Origin: Ramlibacter sp.
GTDB lineage: Bacteria > Pseudomonadota > Gammaproteobacteria > Burkholderiales > Burkholderiaceae_C
Assembly: GCA_021323335.1 (NCBI GenBank)
Contig: JAJTCN010000003.1
Location: 1 to 64,000 of the forward strand
Direction of reading: 5' to 3'
Length of the DNA: 64,000 nt
The translations under genes were made by a program, and so were the position numbers. Numbering within the stretch: position 1 is the stretch's first letter; each line of letters starts with the position of its first letter. Shown here one piece after another: positions 7,102-53,575 of the stretch. The notes beneath the pieces were generated by a model. The model was not told where the DNA came from. It saw only the letters and a program-made list of their open reading frames with translations, and did not search any database.

Positions 7102-7105
7102 GCGG

Positions 7106-8233: not shown

Positions 8234-8302
8234 CGAACGCGTCCTTGCAGCCGGGCTGCGGGCTAGAATGCGTTTCCACCTGTTACCCGCGACAATGCTG
8301 AA

Positions 8303-11102: not shown

Positions 11103-11109
11103 GGATGAA

Positions 11110-11135: not shown

Positions 11136-11162
11136 GCTGGGAGCTGGCTTAAGGCCGGATTA

Positions 11163-12103: not shown

Positions 12104-12183
12104 GGAATCTCCTTGTGGTGCCGAGTAGAACCCGACAGGCGGCGGTGCAGAAAGGGGACTTTCCCGCAGGGCCGCCCAGGCTC

Positions 12184-13994: not shown

Positions 13995-14017
13995 ACCTCG
14001 CCTCCTCGTTGCGCCCG

Positions 14018-36547: not shown

Positions 36548-36551
<4 letters not shown>

Positions 36552-38301: not shown

Positions 38302-39639
38302 ATGCATCCCTCGAATTCCGTGCCGGGCGCAGTGCCCGATTTTTCCTGTGACGTGCTGGTGATCGGCGGCGGGCCCGCCGGGTCCACGCTCGGCACCCTG
38401 CTGGCGCGCGGGGGCCGTGACGTGCACGTGCTGGAGAAGGAGCACCATCCCCGTTTCCACATCGGCGAGTCGCTGCTGCCGGCCAATGTGCGGCTGTTCG
38501 ACGAGCTCGGGGTCCGTGCCGACGTCGAGAAGATGGGCATGCCCAAGTGGGGGGTGGAGTTCGTCTCCCCGGAGCACGAGCGGCAGAACTTCATCGAGTT
38601 CTCGGAAGCGCTGGACAAGTCGCAGCCCTACGCGTGGCAGGTGCGGCGCTCCGAGCTGGACGAACTGCTCTTTCGCACCGCCGGCGAGGCCGGCGCCCGC
38701 ACCCTGGAGGGCCACCGCGCGCGCGACGTGCAGTTCGACGCCGACGGCGCCCTGGTGCAGGTCGAACGCGACGACGGCAGCCGGGCGACGTGGCGCTGCC
38801 GCTACCTGGTGGATGCCACCGGCCGCGACACGCTGCTGGCCAACAAGTTCAAGACCAAGCAGAAGCACCCGGACCACAACAGCTCCGCCCTGTTCGGCCA
38901 CTTCACCGGCGCGCGCCGGCTGGAAGGCAAGCTGGAAGGCAACATCACCATCTTCTGGTTCGACCACGGCTGGTTCTGGTTCATCCCGCTGGCCGACGGC
39001 ACCACCAGCGTGGGCGCCGTGGTGTGGCCCTATTACCTGAAGACGCGCAACAAGCCGCTGCCCGAGTTCTTCCGCGACACCATCGCCGCGTGCCCGGCCC
39101 TGGCGGACCGCCTGCGCGACGCCACGCTGGTCGACGAGAAGGTGCATGCCACCGGCAACTACTCCTACATCGGCACGCACTGCGCGGGCGACCGCTACGC
39201 CATGCTGGGCGACGCCTACGCCTTCGTCGACCCGGTGTTCTCCTCCGGCGTCTACCTGGCCATGAGCTCCGCGTTCGCCGCGCTGCCGCTGGTGGAGGCG
39301 ACCCTGCAGCGCGGGCCCGCGGCCGCGGCGCGCGAACGCGCCGCGTTCGACCGCTTCACCCGGCAGGGGCCGAAGGAATTCAGCTGGTTCATCTACCGCG
39401 TGACCAATCCCACCATGCGCGGCTTCTTCATGATGCCGGGCGACGCGCCGTTCCGGGTGAAGGAGGCGGTGCTGACGGTGCTCGCGGGCGACGTCCACGG
39501 CCGCACCCCGTTCCGCCTGCCGCTCACGCTGTTCAAGGGCCTGTACTACGCGGTCTCGTTCGCGCATCCGCTGCGGACCTGGAGCGCGTGGCGGCGCCGC
39601 CGCCGGAACATCCGCGACCTGGACGCGGCCGTTTCGTGA
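38302..39639 (+). CDS. Flavin-dependent halogenase-like oxidoreductase of the polyene cluster
   Basis: 445 residues. FAD motif VLVIGGGPAGS (19-28), then RFHIGESLLP (51-60), a lysine in MPKWGVEF (Lys 82) at the place of the catalytic Lys of flavin-dependent halogenases, and WFWFIP (Trp 224, Trp 226, Pro 229), which fits the WxWxIP motif of that family. Close homologues lacking halogenase activity exist, so dehydrogenase or monooxygenase activity remains possible. First gene of a plus-strand trio with an acyltransferase and a glycosyltransferase, convergent with the ketosynthase operon. Xanthomonadin, a brominated aryl polyene, is made by a cluster that also has a halogenase-like gene. Confidence 0.8.
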   Translation: MHPSNSVPGAVPDFSCDVLVIGGGPAGSTLGTLLARGGRDVHVLEKEHHPRFHIGESLLPANVRLFDELGVRADVEKMGMPKWGVEFVSPEHERQNFIEFSEALDKSQPYAWQVRRSELDELLFRTAGEAGARTLEGHRARDVQFDADGALVQVERDDGSRATWRCRYLVDATGRDTLLANKFKTKQKHPDHNSSALFGHFTGARRLEGKLEGNITIFWFDHGWFWFIPLADGTTSVGAVVWPYYLKTRNKPLPEFFRDTIAACPALADRLRDATLVDEKVHATGNYSYIGTHCAGDRYAMLGDAYAFVDPVFSSGVYLAMSSAFAALPLVEATLQRGPAAAARERAAFDRFTRQGPKEFSWFIYRVTNPTMRGFFMMPGDAPFRVKEAVLTVLAGDVHGRTPFRLPLTLFKGLYYAVSFAHPLRTWSAWRRRRRNIRDLDAAVS

Positions 39640-40430
39640 AGCCGGTGTCCATCGACGTCGATGCCGGCTTGCCGGAAGCAGACAAGGGGTCTCCCCCCTG
39701 GCCCCTGCGCGTGCTGCAGTGGGCCTGGCTGCTCGTCCTGCTGGCGTGGCTGGGCGTGATCTCGCTGGCCTGGAACGCCGTGGCCTTCGTGCTGAAGCTC
39801 TTTTTGCGGGGCGCGCTGGGCCGCCGCGTCGGCTGCGCCGGCATCGCCTACGGCTACCGCTTCTACTGGGCCTGCGCCCGGGCCAGCGGGCTGATGCGGC
39901 TGGAAGCGGAGTCGCTCGACGTGCTGCGCGACCAGCCGGGCGGCCTGCTGATCGCCGCCAACCATCCGAGCGTGCTCGACGCCCTGATGATCGTCGCGCG
40001 GCTGCCGCGCAGCGCCTGCATCATGAAGGGCTCGCTGATGCGCAACCCCTTCCTCGGCACCGCCGCCGGCTTCGCGGGCTACGTGGTCAACGACTCCATC
40101 CGCACGATGGTGCGCACCTCCATCGACCGCCTCGAGGAGGGCTGCCAGCTGGTGGCCTTTCCGGAGGGCACGCGCAGCCCGGCGCCGGGCCAGATCCATC
40201 CCTTCAGCCGCAGCATCTCGCTGATCGCGGTGCGGGCGCAGGTGCCGGTCCAGACGGTGGTGATCGAGACCGACTCGCCTTACCTGGGCAAGGGCTGGCC
40301 GCTGTGGAAGCTGCCGCCGATCCCCGTCCGCTTCCGCGCGCGCCTCGGCCAGCGCTTCGAGCCGGGCGACGACGTCGAGCAGCTGTCCGTCCGCATGGAA
40401 GAATATTTTCGCCAGGAGCTTGCCCGTTGA
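39636..40430 (+). CDS. 1-acylglycerol-3-phosphate acyltransferase family protein
   Basis: 264 residues. One N-terminal membrane helix (WLLVLLAWLGVISLAW), the acyltransferase motif NHPSVLD (109-115), and FPEGTR near 175 are intact. It would transfer the finished polyene or another acyl chain to a glycerol-type acceptor. The function matches the acyltransferase half of ApeJ in aryl polyene clusters. GTG 39636 overlaps the previous stop (GTGA). Confidence 0.87.
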   Translation: MKPVSIDVDAGLPEADKGSPPWPLRVLQWAWLLVLLAWLGVISLAWNAVAFVLKLFLRGALGRRVGCAGIAYGYRFYWACARASGLMRLEAESLDVLRDQPGGLLIAANHPSVLDALMIVARLPRSACIMKGSLMRNPFLGTAAGFAGYVVNDSIRTMVRTSIDRLEEGCQLVAFPEGTRSPAPGQIHPFSRSISLIAVRAQVPVQTVVIETDSPYLGKGWPLWKLPPIPVRFRARLGQRFEPGDDVEQLSVRMEEYFRQELAR

Positions 40431-41215
40431 ACGATGCATCGCGCACGCACCTGGTGTTGATCCCGAGCTACAACACCGGCCCCAAGCTGTTCGAAACGGT
40501 CCGCGAGGCGCGCGAGCGCTGGGCCCCCGTGTGGGTGGTGGTCGACGGCAGCACCGACGGCACGGGCCAGGAGCTGCAGCGCATGGCCGCGCAGGACCCG
40601 CACCTGAAGGTGATCGTGCTGCCGGAGAACCAGGGCAAGGGCAGTGCCGTCCTCACCGGCCTGGAGGCGGCGCAGCGCGCCGGCTTCACCCATGCGCTGG
40701 CGATGGACTCCGACGGCCAGCATCCCGCCGACCTGATCCCCACCTTCATGCAGCAGTCGCAGGCGCGGCCCGACGCCATGATCCTCGGCAAGCCGGTTTT
40801 CGACGCCTCGGCGCCGCTGGCGCGCGTGTACGGCCGGCGCCTGTCCAATGGCTGGACCAACCTGGAGACGCTGTTCGCCGGCGTCGGCGATTCGCTGTTC
40901 GGCTTCCGCGTCTACCCCGTCGACGGGCTGATCGAAGTGATGCGCAGCCAGCCCTGGATGCGCCGCTTCGACTTCGACACCGAGGCGGTGGTGCGGCTGG
41001 CCTGGCGCGGGGTGGCCCCGATCAACGTCGACGCGCCGGTGAAGTACCTGCGGGTGGAGGATGGCGGCGTTTCGCACTTCAACTACGTGCGCGACAACAT
41101 CCTGCTCACCTGGATGCACGCCCGGCTGCTCGCGGAGACCCTGGTGCGCCTCCCGGTGCTGCTGATGCGCCGCCTGCGCGGCCTGCCACCGTTCCAGTAT
41201 CTCGGACGGCCCTAG
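40427..41215 (+). CDS. Family 2 glycosyltransferase
   Basis: 262 residues. HLVLIPSYNTGPKLFE, VVVDGSTDGTGQEL, ENQGKGSAVLTGLEAA and MDSDGQHPADLI give the GT2 nucleotide-sugar fold and DxD-like Asp. It resembles dolichyl-phosphate or ApeJ-type transferases. It probably adds a sugar or head group to the polyene lipid. TTG 40427 overlaps the previous stop (TTGA) after CAGGAG. Confidence 0.86.
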   Translation: MNDASRTHLVLIPSYNTGPKLFETVREARERWAPVWVVVDGSTDGTGQELQRMAAQDPHLKVIVLPENQGKGSAVLTGLEAAQRAGFTHALAMDSDGQHPADLIPTFMQQSQARPDAMILGKPVFDASAPLARVYGRRLSNGWTNLETLFAGVGDSLFGFRVYPVDGLIEVMRSQPWMRRFDFDTEAVVRLAWRGVAPINVDAPVKYLRVEDGGVSHFNYVRDNILLTWMHARLLAETLVRLPVLLMRRLRGLPPFQYLGRP

Positions 41216-41227
41216 GAGCCCGGGCCG

Positions 41228-41947
41228 TCAGGCCATCCCGCCGTTGATCGAGATGACCTGGCCGGAGATGTAGCCGGCCTCGTCGCCTGCCAGGAAGGCG
41301 ACCAGCGCCGCGACTTCGTCGGGCTTGCCGGCGCGCTTGGCGGGCACCATCTGCGCGATCGCACCCTTGTCGAAAGCCTTGTCGGCCATCGCCGAGGCGA
41401 TGATGCCCGGCGCCACCACGTTCACCGTGATGCCGCGGCTGGCCAGTTCCAGCGACAGCGACTTGCTCGCCCCGTGCAGCGCGGCCTTGGCCGCCGCGTA
41501 GTTGGCCTGCCCGCGGTTGCCCATGACCGCCGCCACCGAGCTGATGCTGATGATGCGGCCCCAGCGCGTGCGCGCCATCGGCAGGGTGAGCGGCTGCGTG
41601 ACGTGGAAGAAGCCGTGCAGCGACACGTCGATCACCCGGCGCCACTGCTCCACGCGCATGCCGGGGAACACCGCGTCGTCGTGGATGCCGGCATTGTTCA
41701 CCACCACCTGGATGGGCCCCGCTTCCAGCAGGCGCTCCAGGGCGGCGGAGGTGGCCTGCGCGTCGGTGACGTCGAAGGCGACGGCCTCGGCCGAACCGCC
41801 GTCCGCGCGGATCGCCTGCGCGACTTCCTCGGCTGCCGCGAGGCGGCCATTGGCATGCACGATGACGTGCAGGCCGTCGCGCGCGAGGCGGCGGGCTATC
41901 GCGCTGCCCAGGTCGCCGCTGCCGCCGGTGACGAGCGCGCGCTTCAT
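41228..41947 (-). CDS. 3-oxoacyl-ACP reductase (FabG/ApeQ-like)
   Basis: 239 residues. TGGSGDLGSAIARRL cofactor motif, NNAG, ISISSVAAVMGNRGQANYAA with the Tyr and following Lys, and the FabG end GYISGQVISINGGMA. It reduces the 3-keto group during polyene chain extension. Last gene of the minus-strand operon; its ATG overlaps the dehydratase stop. Confidence 0.93.
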   Translation of the reverse strand: MKRALVTGGSGDLGSAIARRLARDGLHVIVHANGRLAAAEEVAQAIRADGGSAEAVAFDVTDAQATSAALERLLEAGPIQVVVNNAGIHDDAVFPGMRVEQWRRVIDVSLHGFFHVTQPLTLPMARTRWGRIISISSVAAVMGNRGQANYAAAKAALHGASKSLSLELASRGITVNVVAPGIIASAMADKAFDKGAIAQMVPAKRAGKPDEVAALVAFLAGDEAGYISGQVISINGGMA

Positions 41948-42387
41948 GGCGGCAGGGGCGTGTCGAGCACGACCGCGAGGCGTCCTTCGGCCACCGTCCC
42001 GCCGGCATGGCGCACGGTGAACGCATAGAGCAGCTGGCGAGCGTCGCCGGCCACGTGCTCCGTGTCGATGACGAGTTCCCCGGCCAGGTCGTCCAGCCTC
42101 AGCCGGTGCAGCCGCACGCCGCGGGCGCTGGCCAGGAAACCGGGCGAGGCGGTGCCGCCGGCTTCGCGGGCGGTCAGCGCCCCGTGGACCGCCGCCGCCT
42201 GCGCGGCGTATTCGATGGCGGCGCTGGCCAGCAGGCCGCTGGCGCTGCGCAGCGGATGCTCCGGATCGGTGTGCCCGGTGGCGGCGCAGCGAATGTGCCT
42301 GGCATCCCACGCATCCACGCGCGCCAGCAGGCACATGCGGCCGGCGTGCGGGATCAGGCCGGCGATCTCGCCGTGGTCCAGCGTCAT
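41944..42387 (-). CDS. 3-hydroxyacyl-ACP dehydratase (ApeP-like)
   Basis: 147 residues, hotdog fold. IPHAGRMCLLARVDAWDARH carries the catalytic His, and ASAAIEYAAQAAAVHGAL the Glu-bearing helix, as in the aryl polyene dehydratase family. It would dehydrate the 3-hydroxyacyl-ACP so that conjugated double bonds accumulate. Overlaps both neighbours by four bases. Confidence 0.88.
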   Translation of the reverse strand: MTLDHGEIAGLIPHAGRMCLLARVDAWDARHIRCAATGHTDPEHPLRSASGLLASAAIEYAAQAAAVHGALTAREAGGTASPGFLASARGVRLHRLRLDDLAGELVIDTEHVAGDARQLLYAFTVRHAGGTVAEGRLAVVLDTPLPP

Positions 42388-43208
42388 GGCGCGAACTCCA
42401 GGTGCAGCTCCAGTGCCAGCTGCGGCGAGCCGGGCAGCACGACGCGCGCCGGCCGGCGCCGCGCGATCGCTTCCAGCAGCGGCAGGGCGCGGGCGCTGGG
42501 CAGGCTCACGCGCAGGGCTTCCAGCGCCGCATCGTGGCAGCGCGTGGCGGGGCCCGCCTGCGCGCCGGGCAGCAGCCGTGCCTTCAGGCGGACGGGGGCG
42601 CCGGTGTCGCCGGCGGCGACGAGCACGAGCCCGATGCCCATCACGTCGGGCAGCGGCCGGGTGGCGTGGAGCGGTTCGGGGTAGGGGGTCTCGCTGGACA
42701 CCAGCAGCACGGGGGCGCCCAGCCCGGGGAGCTGCGAAATGGCGGCCACCAGGCCGGCGCCGAAGCTGTCGTCATGCGCGCAGACGCTGGTGGAGGCATG
42801 GCGGCTGCCCACGGCGATGTGCCAGTAGCCTGCCGCGGCGTTGTGCACGGAGTTCGTGAACCGGGTCGGCGACACCATCCGCTCCGGGCCCGGCGGATGC
42901 GCCAGCGTCTCGCACAGCGCGTGGCAGTTGGCGCCGTCGCCGCCGGAGGAGGTGAACACGGTGGCCAGGCCCGCCGGGTCGCTGCCGGCGGCGATGCACG
43001 CGGCGTCGGCGACGCACAGCGCCACCTTCACCGCCGCGCCGGCGCGGCGCCGTTCGGCAGCCGGCAGCCGCAGCGGCGGCGGCACCGCCGTCGGGGCGGG
43101 CACGTAAGGCGCATCGCCGCGCAGCACGGGCTGCGCTTCGTCCCAGGAAGTCAGTCCCGGACCGACGAGTCCGATGCCCAGCACGTCGAGTTCCATCACG
43201 CCGCTCAT
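42384..43208 (-). CDS. Ketosynthase-like chain-length factor (ApeC-like)
   Basis: 274 residues, about two thirds of a ketosynthase, matching the short N-terminal ketosynthase family found beside aryl polyene ketosynthases. Motifs: LDVLGIGLVGPGLTSWDEAQ, VFTSSGGDGANCHALCE, SVHNAAAGYWHIAVG, ASTSVCAHDDSFGAGLV. The His/His region of true ketosynthases is absent. It likely pairs with the ketosynthase to set chain length. Confidence 0.85.
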   Translation of the reverse strand: MSGVMELDVLGIGLVGPGLTSWDEAQPVLRGDAPYVPAPTAVPPPLRLPAAERRRAGAAVKVALCVADAACIAAGSDPAGLATVFTSSGGDGANCHALCETLAHPPGPERMVSPTRFTNSVHNAAAGYWHIAVGSRHASTSVCAHDDSFGAGLVAAISQLPGLGAPVLLVSSETPYPEPLHATRPLPDVMGIGLVLVAAGDTGAPVRLKARLLPGAQAGPATRCHDAALEALRVSLPSARALPLLEAIARRRPARVVLPGSPQLALELHLEFAP

Positions 43209-43215
43209 GGACCGC

Positions 43216-44403
43216 TCACGCCGCCCCCAGCACCAGGCTGGCATTCGAGCCGCCGAAGCCGAAGGAATTGCTCAACACGCAGCGTACGGACTGCTCTCGA
43301 TTGGCCTGCAGGTAGTTCGCATGGAGCGCCGGATCGCGTTCCCGCACGTTGAGGCCGCCGGGCATCAGTCCGTGGCGGATGGCCAGCAGGCTGATCACCG
43401 CCTCCACGCCGCCCGCGGCGCCCAGCGTGTGGCCGGTGGCGCCCTTGGTGGAACTGCAGGGCACCTCCTGGCCGAACACCGACAGCACCGCCTTGTCTTC
43501 GGCGGCGTCGTTGCTGGGCGTGCCGGTGCCGTGCAGGTTGATGTAGTCCACCTGCGCGGGCGTGAGGCCGGCGCCGGCCAGCGCCTGCCGCATGGCGGCC
43601 GCGGCGAGCTCGCCCTCGGGGTGCGGGGAACTCATGTGGTGGGCGTCGCTGCTTTCGCCGACGCCCAGCAAGCGGGCCAGCGGCGCCTCGCCCGGGACCG
43701 GCTCGCGCTGCAGCAGCGAGAAGGCCGCGCCCTCGCCGAGCGACACGCCGCTGCGCTGCGCGTCATAGGGGCGGCAGATATCGGCGTTGAACAGCTGCAG
43801 CGACTGGAAGCCGTAGAGCGTGGTCAGGCACAGGCTGTCGACCCCGCCCACCACCGCGGCATCGATCCAGCCGGCTTCGATCAGGCGGGCCGCATCGCCG
43901 AACACCTTGGCGCTGGAGGAGCAGGCGGTGGACACGATCCAGCTCGGGCCCGTCACGCCGAGCGCGTCGGCCACGAAGCGCGCGAGCGAGGCGGTGCTGT
44001 GGGTCTTCTCGTAGCGGAAGTCCGGAGGCAGGGCGCCGCCTTCGTCGCGCCGTGCGTAGGCCCGTTCCGTCTCGAGGATGCCGGAGGTGCTGGTGCCAAG
44101 CAGCACCGCGACGCGATGGGCGCCCCAGCGCTCGCGCGCCGCCTGCACGGCCTGGACGAAGCCGTCCTGCTGCAGCGCGAGCCAGGCCAGGCGGTTGTTG
44201 CGGCAGTCCCAGTCACTCAGGGCCGCGGGCAGCGCGACGTCCTCCACCCCGGCGGCGCGGCCGATCCAGCCCGGCATCTCGACGTCCTCGAAGGCGCACG
44301 GGACGAGGCCGCAGCGCTGCGCCCGCAGCGCTTCCAGGTGCGCCGCGAGGCCCGCGCCCAGCGCGGTGGTGAGCGTCGCATGGGTGATCGGCAGGGGGAT
44401 CAT
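43216..44403 (-). CDS. Beta-ketoacyl-ACP synthase (ApeO-like)
   Basis: 395 residues with a complete active site: the nucleophile in WIVSTACSSSAKVFGDA, His in INLHGTGTPSNDAAE and His in KGATGHTLGAAGG. It condenses malonyl-ACP with the growing chain. The C-terminus FGFGGSNASLVLG is typical of FabF-like enzymes. It overlaps the methyltransferase by four bases and is seven bases from the chain-length factor. Confidence 0.93.
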   Translation of the reverse strand: MIPLPITHATLTTALGAGLAAHLEALRAQRCGLVPCAFEDVEMPGWIGRAAGVEDVALPAALSDWDCRNNRLAWLALQQDGFVQAVQAARERWGAHRVAVLLGTSTSGILETERAYARRDEGGALPPDFRYEKTHSTASLARFVADALGVTGPSWIVSTACSSSAKVFGDAARLIEAGWIDAAVVGGVDSLCLTTLYGFQSLQLFNADICRPYDAQRSGVSLGEGAAFSLLQREPVPGEAPLARLLGVGESSDAHHMSSPHPEGELAAAAMRQALAGAGLTPAQVDYINLHGTGTPSNDAAEDKAVLSVFGQEVPCSSTKGATGHTLGAAGGVEAVISLLAIRHGLMPGGLNVRERDPALHANYLQANREQSVRCVLSNSFGFGGSNASLVLGAA

Positions 44404-45149
44404 GACGATCCGGCTCCGCTGCGCTGCGCCACCAGCAGCACGTTGGCGAAGGGCGTGCCCTGGCTCATGGGACGCGGCTCGACCTGCATGCCGAGCTTGC
44501 GCAGCTGCGCGATCCATTCGGCGAGCGGACGGCCGTACACCGGCGCCACGGTATGGCCGCGCACCCGCGTGACGGCGCGATCGACCCACTGGCTGATGGC
44601 GAAGCCGCGGCTCTCGGCGGCATCGCCCACGCGCAGCAGCAGCCGGCCGCCGGGCACCAGCGCGTCGTGCACGCGCTGCAGCACGGCGTCCTGCTCCGCG
44701 TGCGTCACGTAGTGCAGCACGTCGAGGATCACCACCGCGTGCGAGGAAGGAAAGGCCTCGCTGCGCATGTCGCCGCAGACGAACCGGGCCTCCGCGCCTT
44801 CGCCCAGGGCCGCGCGGGCCCGCGCCACGTCGCGCGGCATCAGTTCGATGCCGGTGAATTGCGTGCCGGCCGGCGCCTCCGGCCACGCCTGCGGCCATTC
44901 CCCGGCCGCGCGCATCGCGGCGCAGGCGCGCAGCAGGCTGGCGAGCAGGCCCTGGCCGCAGCCGATGTCCAGGACGCGGGCGCCGGGTGGGATCAGTCCG
45001 GCGGCCAGCATGTGGCGGAACACGGGATCGCGGCCCAGCTTGCCGCGCGCGAAGTGCCAGGCGAAGCGGCCGGCCCCGCGGTAAGGCTCGCTGGCGCGAT
45101 CCAGCAGGCGGGCCCAGGCGGCGCCTTCGTTGGCCAGGTCCATGGTCAT
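44400..45149 (-). CDS. SAM-dependent methyltransferase of the polyene cluster
   Basis: 249 residues, class I fold: VLDIGCGQGLLASLL near residue 58, FTGIELMPRDVARAR, and VVILDVLHYVTHAEQDAVL. Aryl polyenes often carry a ring methyl or O-methyl group, so this enzyme may decorate the aryl head (inference). It overlaps the deacetylase stop and the ketosynthase start. Confidence 0.85.
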   Translation of the reverse strand: MTMDLANEGAAWARLLDRASEPYRGAGRFAWHFARGKLGRDPVFRHMLAAGLIPPGARVLDIGCGQGLLASLLRACAAMRAAGEWPQAWPEAPAGTQFTGIELMPRDVARARAALGEGAEARFVCGDMRSEAFPSSHAVVILDVLHYVTHAEQDAVLQRVHDALVPGGRLLLRVGDAAESRGFAISQWVDRAVTRVRGHTVAPVYGRPLAEWIAQLRKLGMQVEPRPMSQGTPFANVLLVAQRSGAGSS

Positions 45150-45991
45150 GGGGCGGGACTCCGGGGCGTGGACAGCGCTTGCGGCAGGGTGACCGGCACC
45201 AGCCGCTGGCGGCGCAATTCGGCCAGCAGGGCCGGCAGCACGGTGAGGACGACGGGGCGGTCCTGGGCGTCGCGGGCGCAGTTGCCGTCGTGCAGCAGCA
45301 GGATGTCGCCGGCGGCCAGGCCTTTCGTGAGGCGCTGCAGCACGCGTTGCGGGTCGCGCTCGCGCGTGTCGAAGCCGCGCCGGGTCCAGCTGGCCAGCGC
45401 CAGTCCCATGCGATGCAGCACCGGCGCCAGGAAGGGATTGCGCAGGCCGGCGGGGGCGCGGAAGAAGCCGGGCACTTCACCGGTGACGTCGGACAGCACG
45501 GCCTGCGCGGCCTGGATCTCGCGTGCCAGGCCGCGCGGGCCGAGCAGCGAGAACCGGTGGCTGTGCACGTGGCTGTGGTTCTGCACGCTGTGGCCGCGCC
45601 GCACGATCTCGCGCACCAGTTCCGGGTGGCGCTGCACGTGCGCGGCGATGCAGAAGAAGGTGGCGCGGGCGCCGGCCGCATCCAGCAGGTCCAGCACCGC
45701 GGGGGTGACCTCGGGCTCGGGGCCGTCGTCGATGGTGAGGGCGACTTCCCTGCGCGCGACGGCGGCGGCAGGCAGGCGCAGCAGGTTGTCGCCCAGCGCG
45801 GTGGAGCGCGGCCACAGCCCGATCCCGGTCACAACGGCATTGTTCAGGACGACGACGGCAAGGATCCACGGCCACTGCGCGGGCACGGCCAGCAGGGCAA
45901 TGGCGGCGCCGACGTGGATGCCTGCCGTGGCCCACAACAGCGGGGGCACGGGCCAGCGGGACAGGCCCGGACGGGTAAGGACGGCGCTCAC
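45146..45991 (-). CDS. Polysaccharide deacetylase (NodB domain), membrane-anchored
   Basis: 281 residues. Two N-terminal membrane helices, LLWATAGIHVGAAIALLAV and WILAVVVLNNAVVTGIGLW, precede a NodB domain: ALTIDDGPEP with the metal Asp pair, HSHVHSHRF for the zinc His, FFRAPAG and LLLHDGN. It removes N-acetyl groups from a sugar outside the membrane. It is not part of the canonical Ape set and suggests that the sugar head group is amino-sugar-like, or that it edits cell-surface glycans. Confidence 0.87.
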   Translation of the reverse strand: MSAVLTRPGLSRWPVPPLLWATAGIHVGAAIALLAVPAQWPWILAVVVLNNAVVTGIGLWPRSTALGDNLLRLPAAAVARREVALTIDDGPEPEVTPAVLDLLDAAGARATFFCIAAHVQRHPELVREIVRRGHSVQNHSHVHSHRFSLLGPRGLAREIQAAQAVLSDVTGEVPGFFRAPAGLRNPFLAPVLHRMGLALASWTRRGFDTRERDPQRVLQRLTKGLAAGDILLLHDGNCARDAQDRPVVLTVLPALLAELRRQRLVPVTLPQALSTPRSPAP

Positions 45992-46039
45992 GTGGACGAT
46001 GGAAACGCGTGGCGGACTGCGGGCCAGCTCATGTGTCGC

Positions 46040-48406
46040 TCATTGTGTCACAGGGTCCGCGGCCCGCTGCACGGCGGCGCGGGAAAAGGCGGCCGCCAGC
46101 AACAGCGACAGCAGCGCACCCGGGGCCACGGTGATCCCGACGGCGGACAGGGCCGGCACCTTGGCGGTGGCCAGCAGCGCGAAGGAGACCACCGTCGTGA
46201 TGTTCGCCAGCATCAGGGAGGCCAGCGTGTCCGTGCCGGCGTGCCCGCGCTCCCGCAGGTAGTCGAAGAACAGCGCGTAGTTCGAGCCGATGGCGGCGAC
46301 CAGCAGCAGGCCGACCAGGTGCAGCACGCCCAGCGCGGCGCCGGACAGCGCGAGGCCCGCCAGCACGAGGATCACGCTGGCGACCAGGGGCAGCAGGACG
46401 CCTGCCAGGCGGCGCAGCGAGCGCAGGTGCCATGCGAGCAGCGCCAGCACCGCGAGCGCGCCGGCGGCCGCCTGCCAGCGAACCTGCTCCAGGTAGCTGG
46501 CGTAGATCCGGCTCAGCTCCGGCTGAACCTGCACGACGCGCGTGCCGGGCAGGTCGGCCACGGCCTGCCGCAGCTCCGCCAGCGGCAGGGCGCCGCCGGC
46601 CGGTCCCTGCAGCAGCAGCAGCGCGGTCCACGGCGTGCCGTTCGTGCCGGCGAGCAGCTGCGCATCGAGCGCGCCGGCCAGCGGGGTGCCCTGCAGGTCC
46701 GCCCGCGTGAGCGGGGCCATCGAGCGCTGCGCCTGCACGTCCTCGACGAAGGGGGCGAGCTTTGCCGTCGGCAGCGGGCCGTCGCGGGTCGCGGCGGCCA
46801 GGTTCTGCTGCAGCACGGCGGCCTCCGGCAAGGCGGCCCGGCGCGCGAGTTGCGTCGCCGGGCTGGGCAGGATGCGCGCCGGAGATTGATAGGAGGCCAG
46901 CTTGCCGGCGGCCACCAGCGGATCCAGCCGCTGGCCGATGCGCTCGGCCGCCGCCAGCGCCGACGCTTCGTCGGCGGCTTCGGCGGCCAGCAGCACGCCC
47001 GCGTCGGAGGCGCCGAGGTCGGCGCGCAGCGAGGCATCGAGGTCCAGGTCCTGTTGCGACACCGGGCTGAGTGAAGAGAGCGAGCCGCGCCAGGGCGACG
47101 GCAGCCAGGCGAGCGCCAACGCCGCCGCGACGGTCAAGGCCAGCAGCGGCACGCGCAGGCGGGGCAGGGCGCGGGTCAGGGACTGGGTCAGGCGGCCCAG
47201 GTGCTCGCGCATGCCGGTGCCGGCCGCGCCGTGCGGCGCGATCGCCGGCAGCAGGTAGCGCGTGGTCAGCGCCGCGGCCACCAGGCCGCTGACGGTGAAG
47301 ATGCCCAGTTGCGCGAGCCCGTCCCAGCCGGAGACGACCAGCGCCCCGAAGCCGGCGACCGAGGTCCACACGCCCAGGCGCACCGTGGGCCACTGCTCCT
47401 TCAGCCAGCCGTCGCGGCCCACGGCCCGCGCCTGCACCAGGTAATAGATGCCGTAGTCCACGGCTTCGCCGATCAGCGTGGTGCCGAAGCCGAGCGTCAG
47501 GCCGTGCACCTGCCCGGCGCCCAGGCTCACCGCGACGATCCCGGCGACGACGCCGCTGGCCACCGGCAGCGCGGCGATGCCCAGGGGCCGCAGCGAACCG
47601 AAGGCCAGCACCAGCAGCAGCACCATCGCGACGGTCCCGGCCATGGCGAGCCGCTCGACCTCCGACTTGATGGTGGCGCGCGATTCGACCGCGAACACGC
47701 CGGGGCCGGTGAGTTCCAGTTGCAGGCCGGTCGCGCCGAGCGCGGTGAAGCCCGCGCGCACCTGCCGCTGCGCCTCCTCCTGGGCGTCGAGGTCGCCGCC
47801 GTCGCCGCGCGTGGTGGCCACCAGCATGGCGCGCGGCTCCGTGCGCGAGACCCAGACGCCGTCTTCCACCCGCGGCGCGCTGGCGGGCAGCATCCCTTCC
47901 GCCATGCGCACCGTTTCGCCGGTGGGGTCGCGCCAGAGCAGGGGCTTGATGCGCGAGCCGGCCGGCGTTCCCAGCAGGCCGACGGTCTCGTCGATGGCGC
48001 CGCGCAGGCCGTCCACGGTGAAGCGCTGCGCATCGACGCCGGGGCTCAGCAGGTAGCGGCGCTCGAACAGCAGGCGGCCCAGGATTTCCTGGTTCCCTTC
48101 TTCCCCGTTGTGCACCGCTTCGAAGGCGCTGCTGGCGCGCAGGCCCGCGGCCAGGCGCTTCGATGCGTCGGCGCGCGCCTGCGCCGTGCCGCCGCGAATG
48201 CCGATCATCAGCACGCGGCCGGTCGCGCCGTTCTTCAGCTGCGCCATCAGCACGCGCTGTTCGGCCGTGGGCGCGGAGGGCAGGAAGGCCGAGAGGTCGG
48301 CCACGTAGGTGGCACGGACGCACAGCCACAGACCCAGCGCCATGGCGGCCAGCCAGATCCAGGGCGCCGGCTGGCGCCAGCGCCGCGAGGTGGGGGCGCC
48401 GGTCAA
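46040..48406 (-). CDS. MMPL/RND-type exporter (ApeM-like)
   Basis: 788 residues with two repeated halves, each a large periplasmic loop plus about six helices. Seen: RWRQPAPWIWLAAMALGL, LAMAGTVAMVLLLVLAFGSL, GTTLIGEAVDYGIYYLVQAR (a typical MMPL segment), and in the second half HLVGLLLVAAIGSNYALFFD. It would carry the polyene lipid across the inner membrane towards the LolA-like carrier. The start is TTG 48406, overlapping the LolA stop in TTGA; no ATG lies near. Confidence 0.9.
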   Translation of the reverse strand: MTGAPTSRRWRQPAPWIWLAAMALGLWLCVRATYVADLSAFLPSAPTAEQRVLMAQLKNGATGRVLMIGIRGGTAQARADASKRLAAGLRASSAFEAVHNGEEGNQEILGRLLFERRYLLSPGVDAQRFTVDGLRGAIDETVGLLGTPAGSRIKPLLWRDPTGETVRMAEGMLPASAPRVEDGVWVSRTEPRAMLVATTRGDGGDLDAQEEAQRQVRAGFTALGATGLQLELTGPGVFAVESRATIKSEVERLAMAGTVAMVLLLVLAFGSLRPLGIAALPVASGVVAGIVAVSLGAGQVHGLTLGFGTTLIGEAVDYGIYYLVQARAVGRDGWLKEQWPTVRLGVWTSVAGFGALVVSGWDGLAQLGIFTVSGLVAAALTTRYLLPAIAPHGAAGTGMREHLGRLTQSLTRALPRLRVPLLALTVAAALALAWLPSPWRGSLSSLSPVSQQDLDLDASLRADLGASDAGVLLAAEAADEASALAAAERIGQRLDPLVAAGKLASYQSPARILPSPATQLARRAALPEAAVLQQNLAAATRDGPLPTAKLAPFVEDVQAQRSMAPLTRADLQGTPLAGALDAQLLAGTNGTPWTALLLLQGPAGGALPLAELRQAVADLPGTRVVQVQPELSRIYASYLEQVRWQAAAGALAVLALLAWHLRSLRRLAGVLLPLVASVILVLAGLALSGAALGVLHLVGLLLVAAIGSNYALFFDYLRERGHAGTDTLASLMLANITTVVSFALLATAKVPALSAVGITVAPGALLSLLLAAAFSRAAVQRAADPVTQ

Positions 48407-48990
48407 GGCTTGGCCGGCGCGTTGGCGGACACGGGCTCGATGCGCATCACCGACACGTCGCCGTCGGCGAGCGTCATGCGCACCTCGCGCACCTGGCCCT
48501 GCCGGCCGCTCAGGCGCAGGTACGCGACCTGCTGGCGCAGGCGCGGCTCGCGCGGGACCAGGTCCAGCTGCCACTGTTCCGGGCTGCCCTGCACGCCGGT
48601 GTCGAAGTAGCGCTCCAGGGTGGCGCGGTTGCCGGTGAGCGTGCCGCGGATCGCCTCGACGATCACCACCGCCTCCGGCACCGAGTCCAGCAGCGTCGTC
48701 TGCGTGCGGCCGCCGCGGCTCAGGGTGAGCTGGTTGCCCACGACCGCCATGCGCTCGTGGCGCGGCTTGAGCTGCTCGCGCACGAAGGTGTCGGGCGCGC
48801 TGAAGCTCAGGCGGCCGCTGGAATGCAGCGTGTGGTCCAGTTGCTGCACGCGCCGGTCCTCCACGAACTCCGCCTGCCCGGAGCGCGTCTGCGCCAGCTG
48901 CTTCATGAGCGCCGGCAGGTCGAAACCAGCCGGGCGTGCCGCGCCGGACGCGGCCAGGCACAGCGCCAGCAGCGCGGTGCGCATCGCCAT
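48403..48990 (-). CDS. LolA-like outer-membrane lipoprotein carrier (ApeL-like)
   Basis: 195 residues. A signal peptide MRTALLALCLAASGAARPAG is followed by the LolA fold: LAQTRSGQAEFVEDRRVQQL, SGRLSFSAPDTFVREQLKP and GTLTGNRATLERYFDTGVQG. It probably ferries the lipidic product across the periplasm. ATG 48990 is chosen because it starts the signal peptide; an upstream ATG at 49020 would overlap the acyltransferase gene. Confidence 0.87.
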   Translation of the reverse strand: MAMRTALLALCLAASGAARPAGFDLPALMKQLAQTRSGQAEFVEDRRVQQLDHTLHSSGRLSFSAPDTFVREQLKPRHERMAVVGNQLTLSRGGRTQTTLLDSVPEAVVIVEAIRGTLTGNRATLERYFDTGVQGSPEQWQLDLVPREPRLRQQVAYLRLSGRQGQVREVRMTLADGDVSVMRIEPVSANAPAKP

Positions 48991-48997
48991 GCGCCGG

Positions 48998-50008
48998 TTA
49001 CTGCGAGTCGTGTCGAGCATGGGTTGCATCCTGCGGACCGGGACTGCCGGCCCAGAAATCGAAGAAATTGAACCAGTTGCGCGGCGCCTGGCGGCAATGC
49101 TGCTCCAGCAAGCCCACGAAGCACCGCAGCGCCGCCTCGATGGCCGCGTCGCTGGGTGCACGCTTGAAGCCGCCGGCGGCGCCGACCGGATCGCTGAAAT
49201 CCGCCAACGGCACGAAGTGGACCTGGTAGCGGTTGCCGCCCAGGTACAGGCCGGTCATGAACACGACCGGCCGGCGCAGCAGCGCGGCCAGCCGGAAGGG
49301 ACCATCGGAGAAAGCGGCGGGCTGGCCCAGGAAGTCGATCCAGTGCGTGCGGGAGCGGCCCGTCGCGGCGGCGGGGACGGGCCCCAGCAGCGTGCGGTCG
49401 GCCAGCAGGCCGGCGACGCCGCCCGCATCCAGCCAGTCGCGCAGTTCCAGCATGGCCTCCATGCGGCCCAGGCCGATGATGCGCAGCACGGCATCCGGGG
49501 CCAGCGCCCGCAGCATGTGCATCAGCAACTGCGCATTCTGTTCGTACATCAGCATGGCCACGCTCGCCCCGCCGCGCTGCACGCCCACCGCGCGCAGCGC
49601 CTCGAAGCTGCCGAGATGCCCACCCAGCAGGAACGCGCCACGGCCCGCACGCAGCACGTCGTCGAGGTTGTCGGTGCCGACGGCGTCGATCTGGAACAGG
49701 TCGAAGTCGCCGCGCAGCAGGTACACGCGATCCAGGATGGTCGCGGCGAAGTGGTGGACGTGGCCGTACCGGTCGCGCCAGCCGGGCGCGCGCCCGAGCA
49801 CGCGCCGCAGGTAGTCCACCGACGCGTGCATCGCGGGCCCGCCGGCCAGCAGGAAGTACAGGGTGATGGGGTGCAGCAGCAGGCGCGTCAGGCGCCGCCC
49901 GAGCGTCACCGCGATCCAGCGCATGATGCGCAGCGCCGACGCGTTGCTGCGTTCGGCCTGCGTCGTCCACGCCGCCGCGTTGCCGGCGGACTCGGGGGTG
50001 GCGCTCAT
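48998..50008 (-). CDS. LpxL/HtrB-type acyltransferase (ApeD-like)
   Basis: 336 residues. One membrane helix near the N-terminus (ITLYFLLAGG region), the HxxxxE-type motif GGHLGSFEALR near residue 131, and DRTLLG are family marks of late lipid A acyltransferases. In aryl polyene clusters this enzyme is thought to act in lipid anchoring. Overlaps the ApeI-like gene stop. Confidence 0.88.
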   Translation of the reverse strand: MSATPESAGNAAAWTTQAERSNASALRIMRWIAVTLGRRLTRLLLHPITLYFLLAGGPAMHASVDYLRRVLGRAPGWRDRYGHVHHFAATILDRVYLLRGDFDLFQIDAVGTDNLDDVLRAGRGAFLLGGHLGSFEALRAVGVQRGGASVAMLMYEQNAQLLMHMLRALAPDAVLRIIGLGRMEAMLELRDWLDAGGVAGLLADRTLLGPVPAAATGRSRTHWIDFLGQPAAFSDGPFRLAALLRRPVVFMTGLYLGGNRYQVHFVPLADFSDPVGAAGGFKRAPSDAAIEAALRCFVGLLEQHCRQAPRNWFNFFDFWAGSPGPQDATHARHDSQ

Positions 50009-50340
50009 TGCGCCTCGCCCTGTTCGAGCTGGCCGCTGGCAGCGAGCTGTCCCTGCGGCGGGTCGCCCTGGGCATGGCGCCAGACCTCGAAGCGCAGGCG
50101 CGACTCGCCGGGCGCGCTCCAGCGGATTTCCAGGCTCGCGCCCGGACGCACCGGCGCCAGGAACTTGACCGCGCTGATGCGCGGCTGCGCGCCCACTGCT
50201 TCGGGGGCTTCGCGCAGCAGCAACTCCAGCACCTCCCCCAGCAGCACCACGCCGGGCAGCAGGGGCTGGCCGGGGAAATGGCCCGGGAAGGCGGGGTGCT
50301 CGCGCGGCACGTCGACGCGGCTGCTGCGCATGTCAGTCAT
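50005..50340 (-). CDS. Thioester dehydratase, hotdog fold (ApeI-like)
   Basis: 111 residues. The FabZ-like motif HPAFPGHFPGQPLLPGVVLL contains the catalytic His and the HFPG turn. This second dehydratase class pairs with the ApeP-like one in polyene clusters. ATG 50340 overlaps the ligase stop by eight bases. Confidence 0.88.
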   Translation of the reverse strand: MTDMRSSRVDVPREHPAFPGHFPGQPLLPGVVLLGEVLELLLREAPEAVGAQPRISAVKFLAPVRPGASLEIRWSAPGESRLRFEVWRHAQGDPPQGQLAASGQLEQGEAQ

Positions 50341-51715
50341 GGCCGGACTCCGCCAGCAGGCGCGTGGCGAGCTCGGCAAGCCGGCCCGACGGCAGCTTGC
50401 CCGTGGGGTCGCGCGGCAGGCTGTCCACCTTCAGGATGCGCCGCGGCAGGAAGGCCGCATCCACCCGTTCCCGCAGGGCCGCGAGCACGGCCTGCCGGTC
50501 CAGGCCCGGCGCGACGACCAGCGCCACCAGCCGCACCACGGCTTCACCGCCGCCGTCGGGCGGCAGCCAGAAGGCGCCGTCGCGAACGCCCTCGATGCTG
50601 TTCAGGTGGTGGTTCAGGTGCGCCAGCGAGCTGCGCTTGCCGGCGACGTTGACCAGGTCGTTGCTGCGCCCGAGCAGGCGAAAGCGCGTCGGCTCCAGCA
50701 CCTCGAGGATGTCCGCCAGGCGCGTGGGCTCCGGCACGTGGCCGCCGCTCACCCAGGACTGTTCGCCGTCGCCGGACAGCACCAGCCCGGAGTAGGTGCG
50801 CCACTCGGGCGCCTGCGTGGTCAGGCGCGTGGCGACCTGGCCGGCTTCCGTGCAGCCGTAGATCTCCATCAGCGGCGCGCCCAGCGCCGCTTCCGCGCGC
50901 GCCGCCAGCTGCGGCGACAGGGCGGCGGTGGCGCTGATCACCAGGTCGACCTGCGGCATCGCGACGCCGTCGTCCAGCAGCGTCTTCAGGTGCAGCGGCG
51001 TCGTCACCAGCACGCGCGGCCGCGGCACGGAGCCGAGCACCCGCGCGATGTCCCGTGCATAGAAGGGACGCTCGGCGGCGAAGGCCGCGCCGCCCAGCAT
51101 GGCGATCAGCACGGTGGATTCGAAGCCGTACATGTGGTGCGCCGGCACGGTGCCCACGATGGTCACGCCGCGCAGGTCGGCGCGGCCCAGCGTTTCGGAA
51201 ATGCGCTGCGCCTCGGCTTCGATGTTCACCACCAGCTGGCCCCAGCGCTTGCCGTGCGGCATCGGCTCGCCGGTCGAGCCCGAGGTGAGCACCTGGGCGG
51301 CCTCGTGCGAAGCCGGCACCATGACCATCGGCGCCGGTGCGCCGGCTTCGGCATCCAGGGGAGGATAGGGGAGGGTGGGCAACGCGAGCTGCGGCTGGGC
51401 GGCATCCCCGAGCACGTAGGCGGACGGGAACAGCGCCTGCAGGCGCCGCACCGTGTCGGGCGTATGGTTCGGCGGCATCAGCGCGGCCTGGCCGCGCGCC
51501 ATCGCCGCGCCCAGGGCCAGCGCGAACTGGTAGCGGTCGGCCGTCATCGGCAGCACGGGACCCCCTTGCGGCAGCAGCGGGGCGAGCCGGTGCACGTCCT
51601 GCAGGAAGCGCTGGCGCGACAGAGCTTGCCCAGCGCGCCAGGCGAGCGGCTCGTCCAGCGAAGCGTGGCCGGCGAGGAGCGGCAGGCTTGCCGGTTGCAC
51701 GGGGGATGCGGTCAT
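50333..51715 (-). CDS. AMP-dependent acyl-ACP/CoA synthetase (ApeH-like)
   Basis: 460 residues, shorter than full CoA ligases. The phosphate-binding loop LTSGSTGEPMPHGKRW is near residue 140, YGCTEAGQVATRL near 290, and the catalytic Lys in DPTGKLPSGRL near 440. In aryl polyene synthesis the ApeH ligase loads the aryl starter acid on ACP. No ammonia lyase or other starter-forming enzyme is seen, so the starter must come from elsewhere. Confidence 0.9.
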   Translation of the reverse strand: MTASPVQPASLPLLAGHASLDEPLAWRAGQALSRQRFLQDVHRLAPLLPQGGPVLPMTADRYQFALALGAAMARGQAALMPPNHTPDTVRRLQALFPSAYVLGDAAQPQLALPTLPYPPLDAEAGAPAPMVMVPASHEAAQVLTSGSTGEPMPHGKRWGQLVVNIEAEAQRISETLGRADLRGVTIVGTVPAHHMYGFESTVLIAMLGGAAFAAERPFYARDIARVLGSVPRPRVLVTTPLHLKTLLDDGVAMPQVDLVISATAALSPQLAARAEAALGAPLMEIYGCTEAGQVATRLTTQAPEWRTYSGLVLSGDGEQSWVSGGHVPEPTRLADILEVLEPTRFRLLGRSNDLVNVAGKRSSLAHLNHHLNSIEGVRDGAFWLPPDGGGEAVVRLVALVVAPGLDRQAVLAALRERVDAAFLPRRILKVDSLPRDPTGKLPSGRLAELATRLLAESGHD

Positions 51716-52407
51716 GGGCGGGTGTCGCCCTGCGACCGGTCGCTCGCCCGCGCGCCATGGCTGCGGTAGGCCTGCAGCGCCCGGTGCAGGCTGACGCGCT
51801 CGAACTCGGGGTGCAGCCGGTAACGCAGCAGGTATTCGCCCACGAAGAAGCCGACGGTGAAGACCGGCGTGAGGATGTTGGCCAGCAGCGACCAGTGGGC
51901 GAAGTCTCCCAGCGAGAACAGCGCCAGCGACGTCACCGCCATGCCGATGAAATAGAGCGTCCACGCCAGCGTCACGTTCCGCGTGTAGCGCTCCATCGCC
52001 GGCGTGACGTCGTGGACGCGACGCGCGAGCGCCGTCACCAGCGGTTCGTCGCCCGGCCTGAGCGTGGCGCCGAACCACGCCGCGAGCGCCAGGTGCACGC
52101 CGGCATGCTGGGCAAGGTACAGCCAGCGCGAGGGGATGCCGTGGCCGCCGGCGCGCTGCAGGCCCAGCAGCACGACGGCCAGCAGCACGACGGCCAGCCC
52201 ACCCGCGACGGCGAGCATGCGGTGGCCGGCGTTCCAGGCCCAGGCCGCACTCACCACGAGCAGTGGTCCCAGGGTGATCGCCAGCGACCAGGCGGAATCC
52301 TGGGCGCGGGTCATCAGGGTGTACGAGGCGGCGGCATACGCCAGTGCGGCCACTGCGACCGCGACCGCGGTCCAGCGCGAGCGGGACGATGCGAAGCCTT
52401 CGCGCAT
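51712..52407 (-). CDS. COG4648-type membrane protein (ApeG-like)
   Basis: 231 residues with about six membrane helices, including AVAVAVAALAYAAASYTLMT, LAITLGPLLVVSAAWAWNAG, GLAVVLLAVVLLGLQR and LYFIGMAVTSLALFSLGD. The conserved end has FFVGEYLLRYRLHPEFE. Small proteins of this kind sit next to the ACP gene in aryl polyene clusters. The biochemical role is not known to me. Confidence 0.83.
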   Translation of the reverse strand: MREGFASSRSRWTAVAVAVAALAYAAASYTLMTRAQDSAWSLAITLGPLLVVSAAWAWNAGHRMLAVAGGLAVVLLAVVLLGLQRAGGHGIPSRWLYLAQHAGVHLALAAWFGATLRPGDEPLVTALARRVHDVTPAMERYTRNVTLAWTLYFIGMAVTSLALFSLGDFAHWSLLANILTPVFTVGFFVGEYLLRYRLHPEFERVSLHRALQAYRSHGARASDRSQGDTRP

Positions 52408-52408
52408 C

Positions 52409-52675
52409 TCAGGAGGTCCGGTGCGCGGCGATGTGGTCGGCCAGGCTGGCGAGCGAAGCGAAGATCTTGTCGTTGTTCTCGTCATCCGAGCGCAGTTGCA
52501 CGCCATAGCGCTGGGACACGACCAGGGAAACCTCGAGCATGTCGATGGAGTCGAGGCCGAGGCCGTCTCCGTACAGCGGCGCATCCGGCGCGATGGCTTC
52601 GGGTGCGGTGTCGAGATTCAAGGCTTCGACCAGCAGGCTGGCCACTTCGTGAAGCAGTTCTTTGTTGGCGGTCAT
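52409..52675 (-). CDS. Acyl carrier protein of the polyene cluster
   Basis: 88 residues. LGLDSIDMLEVSLVVSQRYG carries the phosphopantetheine attachment Ser 43 in the DSI motif. It shuttles the growing chain among ketosynthase, reductase and dehydratases. Canonical aryl polyene clusters have two ACPs; only this one is present here. First gene of the minus-strand operon, divergent from the methyltransferase gene. Confidence 0.93.
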   Translation of the reverse strand: MTANKELLHEVASLLVEALNLDTAPEAIAPDAPLYGDGLGLDSIDMLEVSLVVSQRYGVQLRSDDENNDKIFASLASLADHIAAHRTS

Positions 52676-52798
52676 TGTTGTGCCCACACCCCAGGGCAAG
52701 TGAATCGCTGCGATTTTATGCGAGGCCGCGCGGGGGAACGTGGACAATCACGACGCCGTGAGCGATTCGCCACGGTCCACCCAGGAAGCATCAGCAGA
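52676..52798. promoter_or_regulatory. Divergent promoter region between the ACP and methyltransferase genes
   Basis: The 123-base gap must contain promoters for the long minus-strand polyene operon and probably the plus-strand methyltransferase. A minus-strand TAAAAT hexamer lies near 52713-52718 and a plus-strand GGACAAT near 52742, both plausible -10 elements, but good -35 partners were not found. No clear operator. Confidence 0.4.
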
Positions 52799-53575
52799 AT
52801 GTCCGATCCTTCACGCCAGGAGGCGCACGGCGCGTCGATCCACCTGCCGCATGCCCCGCTTCCCGTCTACTACCGCAGCGGCGACACGGTGGCGCGCGAG
52901 GCATTCCTGCGCGACACCTTCGACTCCACCGCCGTCGACTACGACCGGCTCGAGAAGATCCTCGGGCTGGGCACGGGCCCCGGGTATCGCCGGCAAGCCC
53001 TGCTGCGGGCCGGCCTGCGGCCAGGCATGCGGGTGGTGGACGTCGGCATGGGCACCGGCCTGGTGACCAAGGAGATCATGAAGATCACCGGCGAGCCGCA
53101 CCGCCTGGTGGGTGTCGACCCCAGTCCCGGCATGATGGAGCAGGCGCGCTTCGACCAGCCGGTCGACTGCCGCATCGGCCGGGCCGAGGCCATCCCGGTG
53201 GAATCGGCCAGCGCGGATTTCCTGGTGATGGGCTATGCGCTGCGCCACATCGCCGATTTCGCCGCCGCGGCGGCGGAATTCCGCCGCGTGCTCAAGCCCG
53301 GCGGCCGGCTGCTGGTGCTGGAGATCACGCGCCCTGAAGGGCGCATGGCCAACCTGCTGCTCAAGGCCTACATGCGCGGGCTGGTGCCGGCCATTGCGCG
53401 CCTGGTGTCGCGGTCGCCCACGACGCCGATGCTGTGGCGCTACTACTGGGACACCATCGAGGCCTGTGCGCCGCCCGCGCAAGTGCTGCAGACGCTGCGC
53501 AATGCCGGCCTGGCTGGCGTGGAGCGCCACGTCGAAGTCGGCATCTTTTCGGAATACCGCGCCGTGGGCGCCTGA
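52799..53575 (+). CDS. SAM-dependent methyltransferase (UbiE-like)
   Basis: 258 residues, class I fold: MRVVDVGMGTGLVTKEIMK, VGVDPSPGMMEQARF and MGYALRHIADFAAAAAEFRR, FRRVLKPGGRLLVLEI. It resembles UbiE/COQ5 enzymes and methyltransferases found at the edge of pigment clusters. It could methylate a quinone or the polyene head. Divergent from the ACP gene, and 19 bases ahead of the PagL-like gene. Confidence 0.88.
   Translation: MSDPSRQEAHGASIHLPHAPLPVYYRSGDTVAREAFLRDTFDSTAVDYDRLEKILGLGTGPGYRRQALLRAGLRPGMRVVDVGMGTGLVTKEIMKITGEPHRLVGVDPSPGMMEQARFDQPVDCRIGRAEAIPVESASADFLVMGYALRHIADFAAAAAEFRRVLKPGGRLLVLEITRPEGRMANLLLKAYMRGLVPAIARLVSRSPTTPMLWRYYWDTIEACAPPAQVLQTLRNAGLAGVERHVEVGIFSEYRAVGA

Follow-up and report, generated by a model that had tools for sequence, protein, structure and literature searches.

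A probable aryl polyene pigment gene cluster of the arc/xan branch in a Ramlibacter genome

Organization of the locus

The stretch of Ramlibacter sp. DNA analysed here (contig JAJTCN010000003.1, positions 1–64,000 of the forward strand, 64,000 nucleotides; hereafter the window) belongs to an assembly of 4.49 Mb in 165 contigs that is 89.7% complete. An earlier note, made from the letters of the window, had proposed an aryl polyene-like cluster of unusual content at 38302–53575. The genes that it named are indeed present and intact there: open reading frames and codon-bias gene calls give 17 intact genes, which very probably form an aryl polyene (APE) pigment cluster of the branch that includes the arcuflavin (arc) and xanthomonadin (xan) clusters. 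Their identities were obtained from NCBIfam, Pfam and PDB sequence matches and from pairwise comparison with the ape genes of Escherichia coli CFT073. They are listed below together with one neighbour; arc names refer to Azoarcus sp. BH72.

38302–39639, plus: flavin adenine dinucleotide (FAD)-dependent oxidoreductase of the Trp-halogenase-like fold family, arcA-like position (Pfam Trp_halogenase, 90 bits; FAD_binding_3)
39636–40430, plus: 1-acylglycerol-3-phosphate-type acyltransferase, ApeD/arcD-like (PF01553; 31% to E. coli ApeD, E 1.4e-26)
40427–41215, plus: GT2 glycosyltransferase equivalent to the glycosyltransferase half of ApeJ (PF00535; ApeJ 41% over 238 amino acids, E 3e-56)
41228–41947, minus: ketoreductase, ApeQ/arcH-like (NF004200 FabG, above cut-off; 46% to ApeQ)
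41944–42387, minus: dehydratase-2, ApeP/arcI-like (a profile of 16 homologues matches 6qsr_B, a FabA/FabZ-type dehydratase, E 9.9e-11)
42384–43208, minus: chain-length factor (CLF), ApeC/arcJ-like (PF13723; 6qsp_B, E 2e-5; ApeC, E 7.5e-9)
43216–44403, minus: ketosynthase (KS), ApeO/arcK-like (NF006618, 531 bits, cut-off 407; 6qsp_A, E 1.6e-77; ApeO 44%; KS tree)
44400–45149, minus: class I S-adenosylmethionine methyltransferase, arcM-like position (Pfam Methyltransf_25; no match to E. coli ApeB)
45146–45991, minus: polysaccharide deacetylase (NodB/CE4), arcN-like position (PF01522, 99 bits; 7y51_A, E 3.4e-27)
46040–48406, minus: MMPL/RND-type exporter, ApeM/arcP-like (PF03176; ApeM, E 1.3e-19)
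48403–48984, minus: LolA-like periplasmic carrier, arcQ-like (PF19574 LolA_3, 78 bits; NF053544 flexirubin LolA2, 51 bits, below cut-off)
48998–50008, minus: LpxL-type acyltransferase equivalent to the acyltransferase half of ApeJ, arcR-like (PF03279; ApeJ 31% over 316 amino acids, E 8e-40)
50005–50340, minus: dehydratase-1, ApeI/arcS-like (PF07977; ApeI 37%, E 1.8e-6)
50333–51715, minus: adenosine monophosphate (AMP)-ligase, putatively for an aryl starter by homology, ApeH/arcT-like (PF00501; TIGR02372, 108 bits, below cut-off; ApeH, E 5e-20)
51712–52407, minus: COG4648-like membrane protein, ApeG/arcU-like (weak match to ApeG, E 1.9e-7; no Pfam or NCBIfam match)
52409–52675, minus: acyl carrier protein (ACP), ApeE/XanC/arcV-like (NF006617, 130 bits, cut-off 70; ApeE 47%)
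52799–53575, plus: UbiE-like methyltransferase, divergent (PF01209; adjoins the cluster in three genus-mates)
53595–54197, plus: PagL-type lipid A deacylase, neighbour (PF09411; stays beside the UbiE-like gene in the same three genus-mates)

Thirteen of the 17 genes form a single minus-strand operon (41228–52675), in which eight of the 12 junctions overlap by 4–8 bp, given the chosen start codons. The plus-strand trio of flavoenzyme, acyltransferase and GT2 gene (38302–41215) converges on this operon, and the UbiE-like methyltransferase gene diverges from the ACP gene. The UbiE-like gene is likely, but not certain, to belong to the cluster; it also has matches at other polyene loci (L023, 54%; L027, 47%; L064, 56%). 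Whether the PagL-type gene belongs is uncertain.

The KS and the CLF find their top PDB matches in the two chains of one entry (6qsp_A and 6qsp_B). Dehydratase-2 has no Pfam or NCBIfam match, and as a single sequence it reaches 6qsr_B with an E-value of just 0.89. For the flavoenzyme the top NCBIfam model is the CmlS halogenase at 180 bits, far under the cut-off of 900 for that model. The deacetylase has hydrophobic segments near its N-terminus at residues 18–36 and 42–60, which could hold the protein at the membrane as a hairpin, and its catalytic residues Asp88, Asp89, His139, His143 and Arg178 are conserved in 97–100% of 29 aligned rows. The exporter was queried as an 829-residue version, with a start placed too early, in the family and E. 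coli comparisons, and as 788 residues in the substitution-rate analysis.

Conservation and intactness

All 17 genes recur in identical order in three genus-mates (loci L003, L004 and L063), and 14 of the 17 are found in a fourth (L062), where the stretch lacks the UbiE-like gene, the acyltransferase gene and the flavoenzyme gene. Because the gene order recurs in this way, the cluster is no chance assembly. The KS shares 87% identity with its counterpart in Ramlibacter montanisoli, and the ratio of nonsynonymous to synonymous substitution rates (dN/dS) against this species is 0.07–0.44 over the 17 genes and PagL. Against R. ginsenosidimutans it is 0.12–0.42. The cluster genes are under purifying selection.

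These values bear on whether the cluster might be non-functional or decaying. The missing starter enzyme and the second, partial set of KS, CLF, ACP and flavoenzyme genes elsewhere in the genome, both described below, would fit such a state. With every one of the 17 genes intact, no in-frame stops in the comparisons with the two relatives and dN/dS in the above range, decay is nevertheless very improbable.

Assignment to the aryl polyene family

The locus contains a KS with a CLF partner of the ApeO/ApeC type, a ketoreductase with two dehydratases and, by homology, an AMP-ligase and ACP for an aryl starter. The MMPL exporter, the LolA-like carrier (recognized via Pfam only), acyltransferases and a glycosyltransferase complete the set. 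Of the 18 ape genes of E. coli, 12 have BLAST homologues here at E ≤ 2e-6 (ApeC, D, E, F, G, H, I, J, M, O, Q and R), to which profile search adds the ApeP-like dehydratase. The core and export genes are thus homologous to those of E. coli, in agreement with the assignment to the aryl polyene type that had been made earlier. The absence of a thioesterase is likewise confirmed, none being found among the family matches of the cluster proteins.

Several observations weigh against this assignment. The strain is known from its genome alone, with no pigment on record, and no known aryl-starter enzyme was found in that genome. By BLAST, neither dehydratase-2 against ApeP nor the LolA-like protein against ApeL (E 0.96) gives a significant match, and the window methyltransferase has no match to ApeB. 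Finally, the likeness to the Azoarcus arc genes is one of published annotation.

A second, partial ketosynthase set

The genome holds a second KS, 58% identical to that of the window cluster and unlinked to it, on contig C34. It lies at 10653–15021 of locus L061 with a CLF gene, a divergent ACP gene and a gene for a 630-residue flavoenzyme; no further cluster gene was detected in the 19.9 kb examined of this 28-kb contig. The claim of a single ACP and no second full KS therefore holds within the window but fails for the genome, which contains this unlinked KS–CLF–ACP set.

In a KS tree of 63 rows, the window KS pairs with R. montanisoli (100/95) within a starred clade of six rows that comprises these two, three more genomes of the genus and Leptothrix. 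The C34 KS, at 72–75% identity, falls instead with the main-cluster KSs of four further genomes of the genus (100/100); the full clusters of these are seen in part. These groupings imply that the genus has two cluster lineages in circulation, one of which this genome carries complete and the other in part; the C34 set apparently belongs to that second lineage. Six Rubrivivax-type clusters (L008, L014, L025, L036, L074 and L075) have an additional KS and another, longer flavoenzyme after the ketoreductase. This longer flavoenzyme is 56–58% identical to the one on C34.

Related loci and spread of the deacetylase

A KS-based scan of named genomes returned 39 loci, among them loci of Ramlibacter, Cupriavidus, Rubrivivax, Ideonella, Leptothrix and Gallionella. 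A KS match at E ≤ 1e-60 occurs in 28 of a set of 60 genus genomes that includes our own; 45 of the 60 have a completeness of 90% or more and a contamination of no more than 5%. In print, an arylpolyene cluster is given for R. aurantiacus AW1 (PMC9731981) and one is reported for Caenimonas aquaedulcis (PMC9628874), in the accessible parts of both papers.

Gene content was counted in the 29 loci that extend 3 kb or more upstream of the KS, one of which (L040) is a distant planctomycete match. The deacetylase is present in 21 of them, the methyltransferase in 13 and neither in eight. Deacetylase and GT2 type co-occur in a set of 39 loci (both in 23, neither in 11, no GT2 match in five; Fisher 3.5e-9), in a count that leaves out short loci such as L030 and, for too little flank, L019. 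The latter combines a GT2 of the window type (71%) and an MMPL gene directly before the KS with no deacetylase match. Since the deacetylase loci share one part of the KS tree, short loci are omitted and L019 is a counter-case, the co-occurrence is not independent evidence.

In three Cupriavidus loci (L006, L033 and L034) the cluster adjoins three shared genes. One of these we take by eye to be a homogentisate dioxygenase gene, a neighbour that could bear on aromatic supply.

Source of the aromatic starter

That no aryl-acid-forming gene accompanies the cluster was already part of the earlier note. None is found among the predicted window genes, and the observation extends to the genome and the genus. 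The XanB2/chorismatase model PF21168 has no match in our own genome or in any of the 60 genus genomes; as a control, it matches five of the 11 genomes in which related named loci lie. In Rubrivivax rivuli a chorismatase adjoins the cluster (TIGR04444, 210 bits, below the cut-off of 325). The UbiC model PF04345 is equally without a match in the 60 genus genomes; out of 200 genomes from the order it matches 131, none of which is among the seven same-family genomes listed. A loose single-sequence UbiC search over 41 genus genomes, with a query from a relative in the order, found 13 genomes with matches at E ≤ 10, our own not among them. The best has an E-value of 0.0014 over 71 residues, and the fullest of the weak matches (G046:C17) has E 0.077 with 26% identity over residues 11–142, so a very diverged UbiC in the genus is possible. 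No UbiC was seen in the htpG neighbourhoods of four genomes. An Rv2949c-like chorismate lyase is matched in one of the 60 genus genomes (G040, 22.3 bits, with the cut-off at 22), which is not our own. As the assembly is 89.7% complete, the absences from this genome alone are weak.

Two further candidate sources were rejected. The sole aromatic-lyase match, considered as a tyrosine/phenylalanine lyase, carries the Ser-His motif that histidine lyases have, and the frame preceding it is, as recognized by eye, presumably urocanate hydratase, so that it reads as hutH. A split chorismatase formed by two adjacent FAD or Rid genes was also considered, and the Rid gene at 36548–36958, which neighbours acyl-CoA dehydrogenase genes, encodes a short Rid protein of the ordinary kind.

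Ubiquinone-8 is given as the major quinone of the genus, and a review states, in its accessible part, that bacteria have UbiC or XanB2 (PMC8854274). In the accessible text of PMC5069965, PMC13386864 and PMC6747719 we found no discussion of a missing UbiC or XanB2 in the genus. Ramlibacter might make hydroxybenzoate for both pigment and ubiquinone-8 by a third route that uses neither enzyme, an idea that we consider rather unlikely. Should complete genomes bear out the absence, the genus would have to obtain 4-hydroxybenzoate for ubiquinone, and possibly also for the pigment, in some other way. The missing starter enzyme is the chief point of interest of this locus.

Proposed pathway

By analogy with the named relatives of the cluster, the AMP-ligase would load a hydroxybenzoate, or a related acid, onto the single ACP, the KS–CLF pair would add malonyl units, and the ketoreductase and two dehydratases would turn each unit into a conjugated double bond. 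These chain-assembly steps follow the published APE and xanthomonadin models, as far as their accessible parts describe them. The methyltransferase would methylate the product, and the GT2, the convergent acyltransferase and the LpxL-type enzyme would join the polyene to a membrane lipid anchor. The MMPL and LolA-like proteins would then carry this lipid, probably a yellow pigment, to the outer membrane, in which it may protect against light and oxidants, a role taken from part of the literature on xanthomonadin and Lysobacter pigments.

For the deacetylase we suggest, tentatively and with some doubt, an amino-sugar step: the GT2 would add an N-acetylhexosamine, from which the membrane-anchored NodB-type enzyme would free an amine as the acylation site. 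Counting against this step are the E. coli APE cluster, in which no deacetylase gene is present, the eight of the 29 related loci in which the deacetylase is missing, and L019, where the same GT2 type occurs with no deacetylase match. The Xenorhabdus APE lipid is said to contain galactosamine-phosphate-glycerol; we found no paper that confirms this. The product may carry a new lipid head group; nothing specific points to one.

Window neighbourhood

Beside PagL, at 54286–56355, lies a hybrid histidine kinase gene with receiver and Hpt domains; arcW and arcX, beside the arc ACP gene, encode a histidine kinase and a response regulator (PMC3949708, in the part accessible). At 17438–20624 a glutamine-synthetase-like gene has a Rieske oxygenase gene (LigXa C-terminal domain) and a ferredoxin-like frame as neighbours, in what looks like an aromatic-degradation operon. 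A cyclase that carries an FHA domain, another FHA-like frame and a Ser/Thr kinase lie one after the other at 6208–10534 and form a signalling cluster.

Comparison with known clusters

The core and export genes of the window have their homologues in apeA–R of E. coli CFT073, but the two clusters differ in several respects. ApeJ is a fused glycosyltransferase–acyltransferase, whereas the window has separate GT2 and LpxL-type genes. The E. coli cluster has two ACPs, a second ketosynthase (ApeR), a thioesterase (ApeK) and the DUF3261 protein ApeN, where the window cluster has one ACP and lacks the other three; the E. coli set includes a methyltransferase (PMC8253772), ApeB, which is unrelated to that of the window. 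Conversely, the window has a deacetylase and a flavoenzyme that E. coli does not. According to the accessible part of the same paper, loss of the thioesterase gene merely lowers pigment, and xanthomonadin clusters do without the second ACP (PMC8253772).

The xanthomonadin (pig/xan) clusters of Xanthomonas and Lysobacter, as described in the accessible texts, resemble the window in having one ACP, a KS with a CLF-like partner, a ketoreductase, two dehydratases and an AMP-ligase. They carry xanB2 or its homologue ORF5, neither of which is in the window cluster, and a text search of the available part of the Lysobacter pigment paper finds no deacetylase or methyltransferase. The xan-like acpP2 cluster of Ralstonia solanacearum is reported without xanB2, as is the case in the window (PMC9542644), and with its ACP a xanC mutant of X. 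campestris makes xanthomonadin again (PMC9542644, both from the part accessible). It is a printed precedent for clusters without xanB2.

One could regard the locus as encoding a new kind of polyene lipid, with the deacetylase, the two methyltransferases and the missing starter enzyme as marks of a product class of its own. The genome has no XanB2, UbiC or tyrosine-lyase candidate and the UbiE-like gene is added beside the cluster, as this would have it. Yet deacetylase and methyltransferase are standard arc genes, the former being widespread among the related loci (21 of 29), and xanB2 is missing also from the Ralstonia cluster, whose ACP works in xanthomonadin synthesis, so that we consider a new lipid class very improbable. 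Each of the oddities listed in the earlier note sets the locus apart from the E. coli APE cluster and not from the arc/xan branch; the idea that the deacetylase, the split glycosyltransferase and acyltransferase genes and the single ACP are odd is corrected here.

The closest correspondence is with the arc genes, taken from the accessible part of their published annotation. In Azoarcus they sit in two unlinked loci (PMC3949708, Table 1), and insertion into arcK or arcT renders the bacterium colourless (PMC3949708). The gene set and order shared with arc, which works together with a separate dialkylresorcinol (DAR) locus, raise the question of whether the strain makes a DAR hybrid, arcuflavin itself, with DAR genes elsewhere in the genome. 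No DAR genes are seen in the window, no search aimed at them having been made, and the chorismatase gene arcB was not found in the genome; we consider arcuflavin itself an unlikely product.

The assignment to an aryl polyene cluster of the arc/xan branch is in line with the order of the genes. No chorismatase of the XanB2/ArcB type is found in the window cluster, and arcB, arcC, arcF, arcG, arcL and arcO have no counterpart there. Acyltransferase and glycosyltransferase are separate genes in arc as well (arcD, arcR and arcE), and the deacetylase (arcN), the methyltransferase (arcM), the single ACP (arcV) and the KS with its CLF (arcK and arcJ) are common to both. One arc locus reads methyltransferase, polysaccharide deacetylase, hypothetical protein, exporter, LolA, acyltransferase, dehydratase, AMP-ligase, hypothetical protein and ACP (PMC3949708); the window has methyltransferase and deacetylase in this same order, followed by exporter, LolA, acyltransferase, dehydratase, ligase, arcU-like protein and ACP, equivalent to arcM–V. 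The other comprises a ketosynthase, a protein with an N-terminal KS domain, a dehydratase, a reductase, two genes, a glycosyltransferase, an acyltransferase, two genes and a halogenase (PMC3949708), and the window order of KS, CLF, dehydratase, ketoreductase, glycosyltransferase, acyltransferase and halogenase-like flavoenzyme equals arcK–H, E, D and A. A characterized cluster with a known product thus matches the window in gene content and order, by published annotation, and the locus, in which the two runs that are unlinked in Azoarcus are joined as one, is a further example at genus level of a widespread family of pigments.

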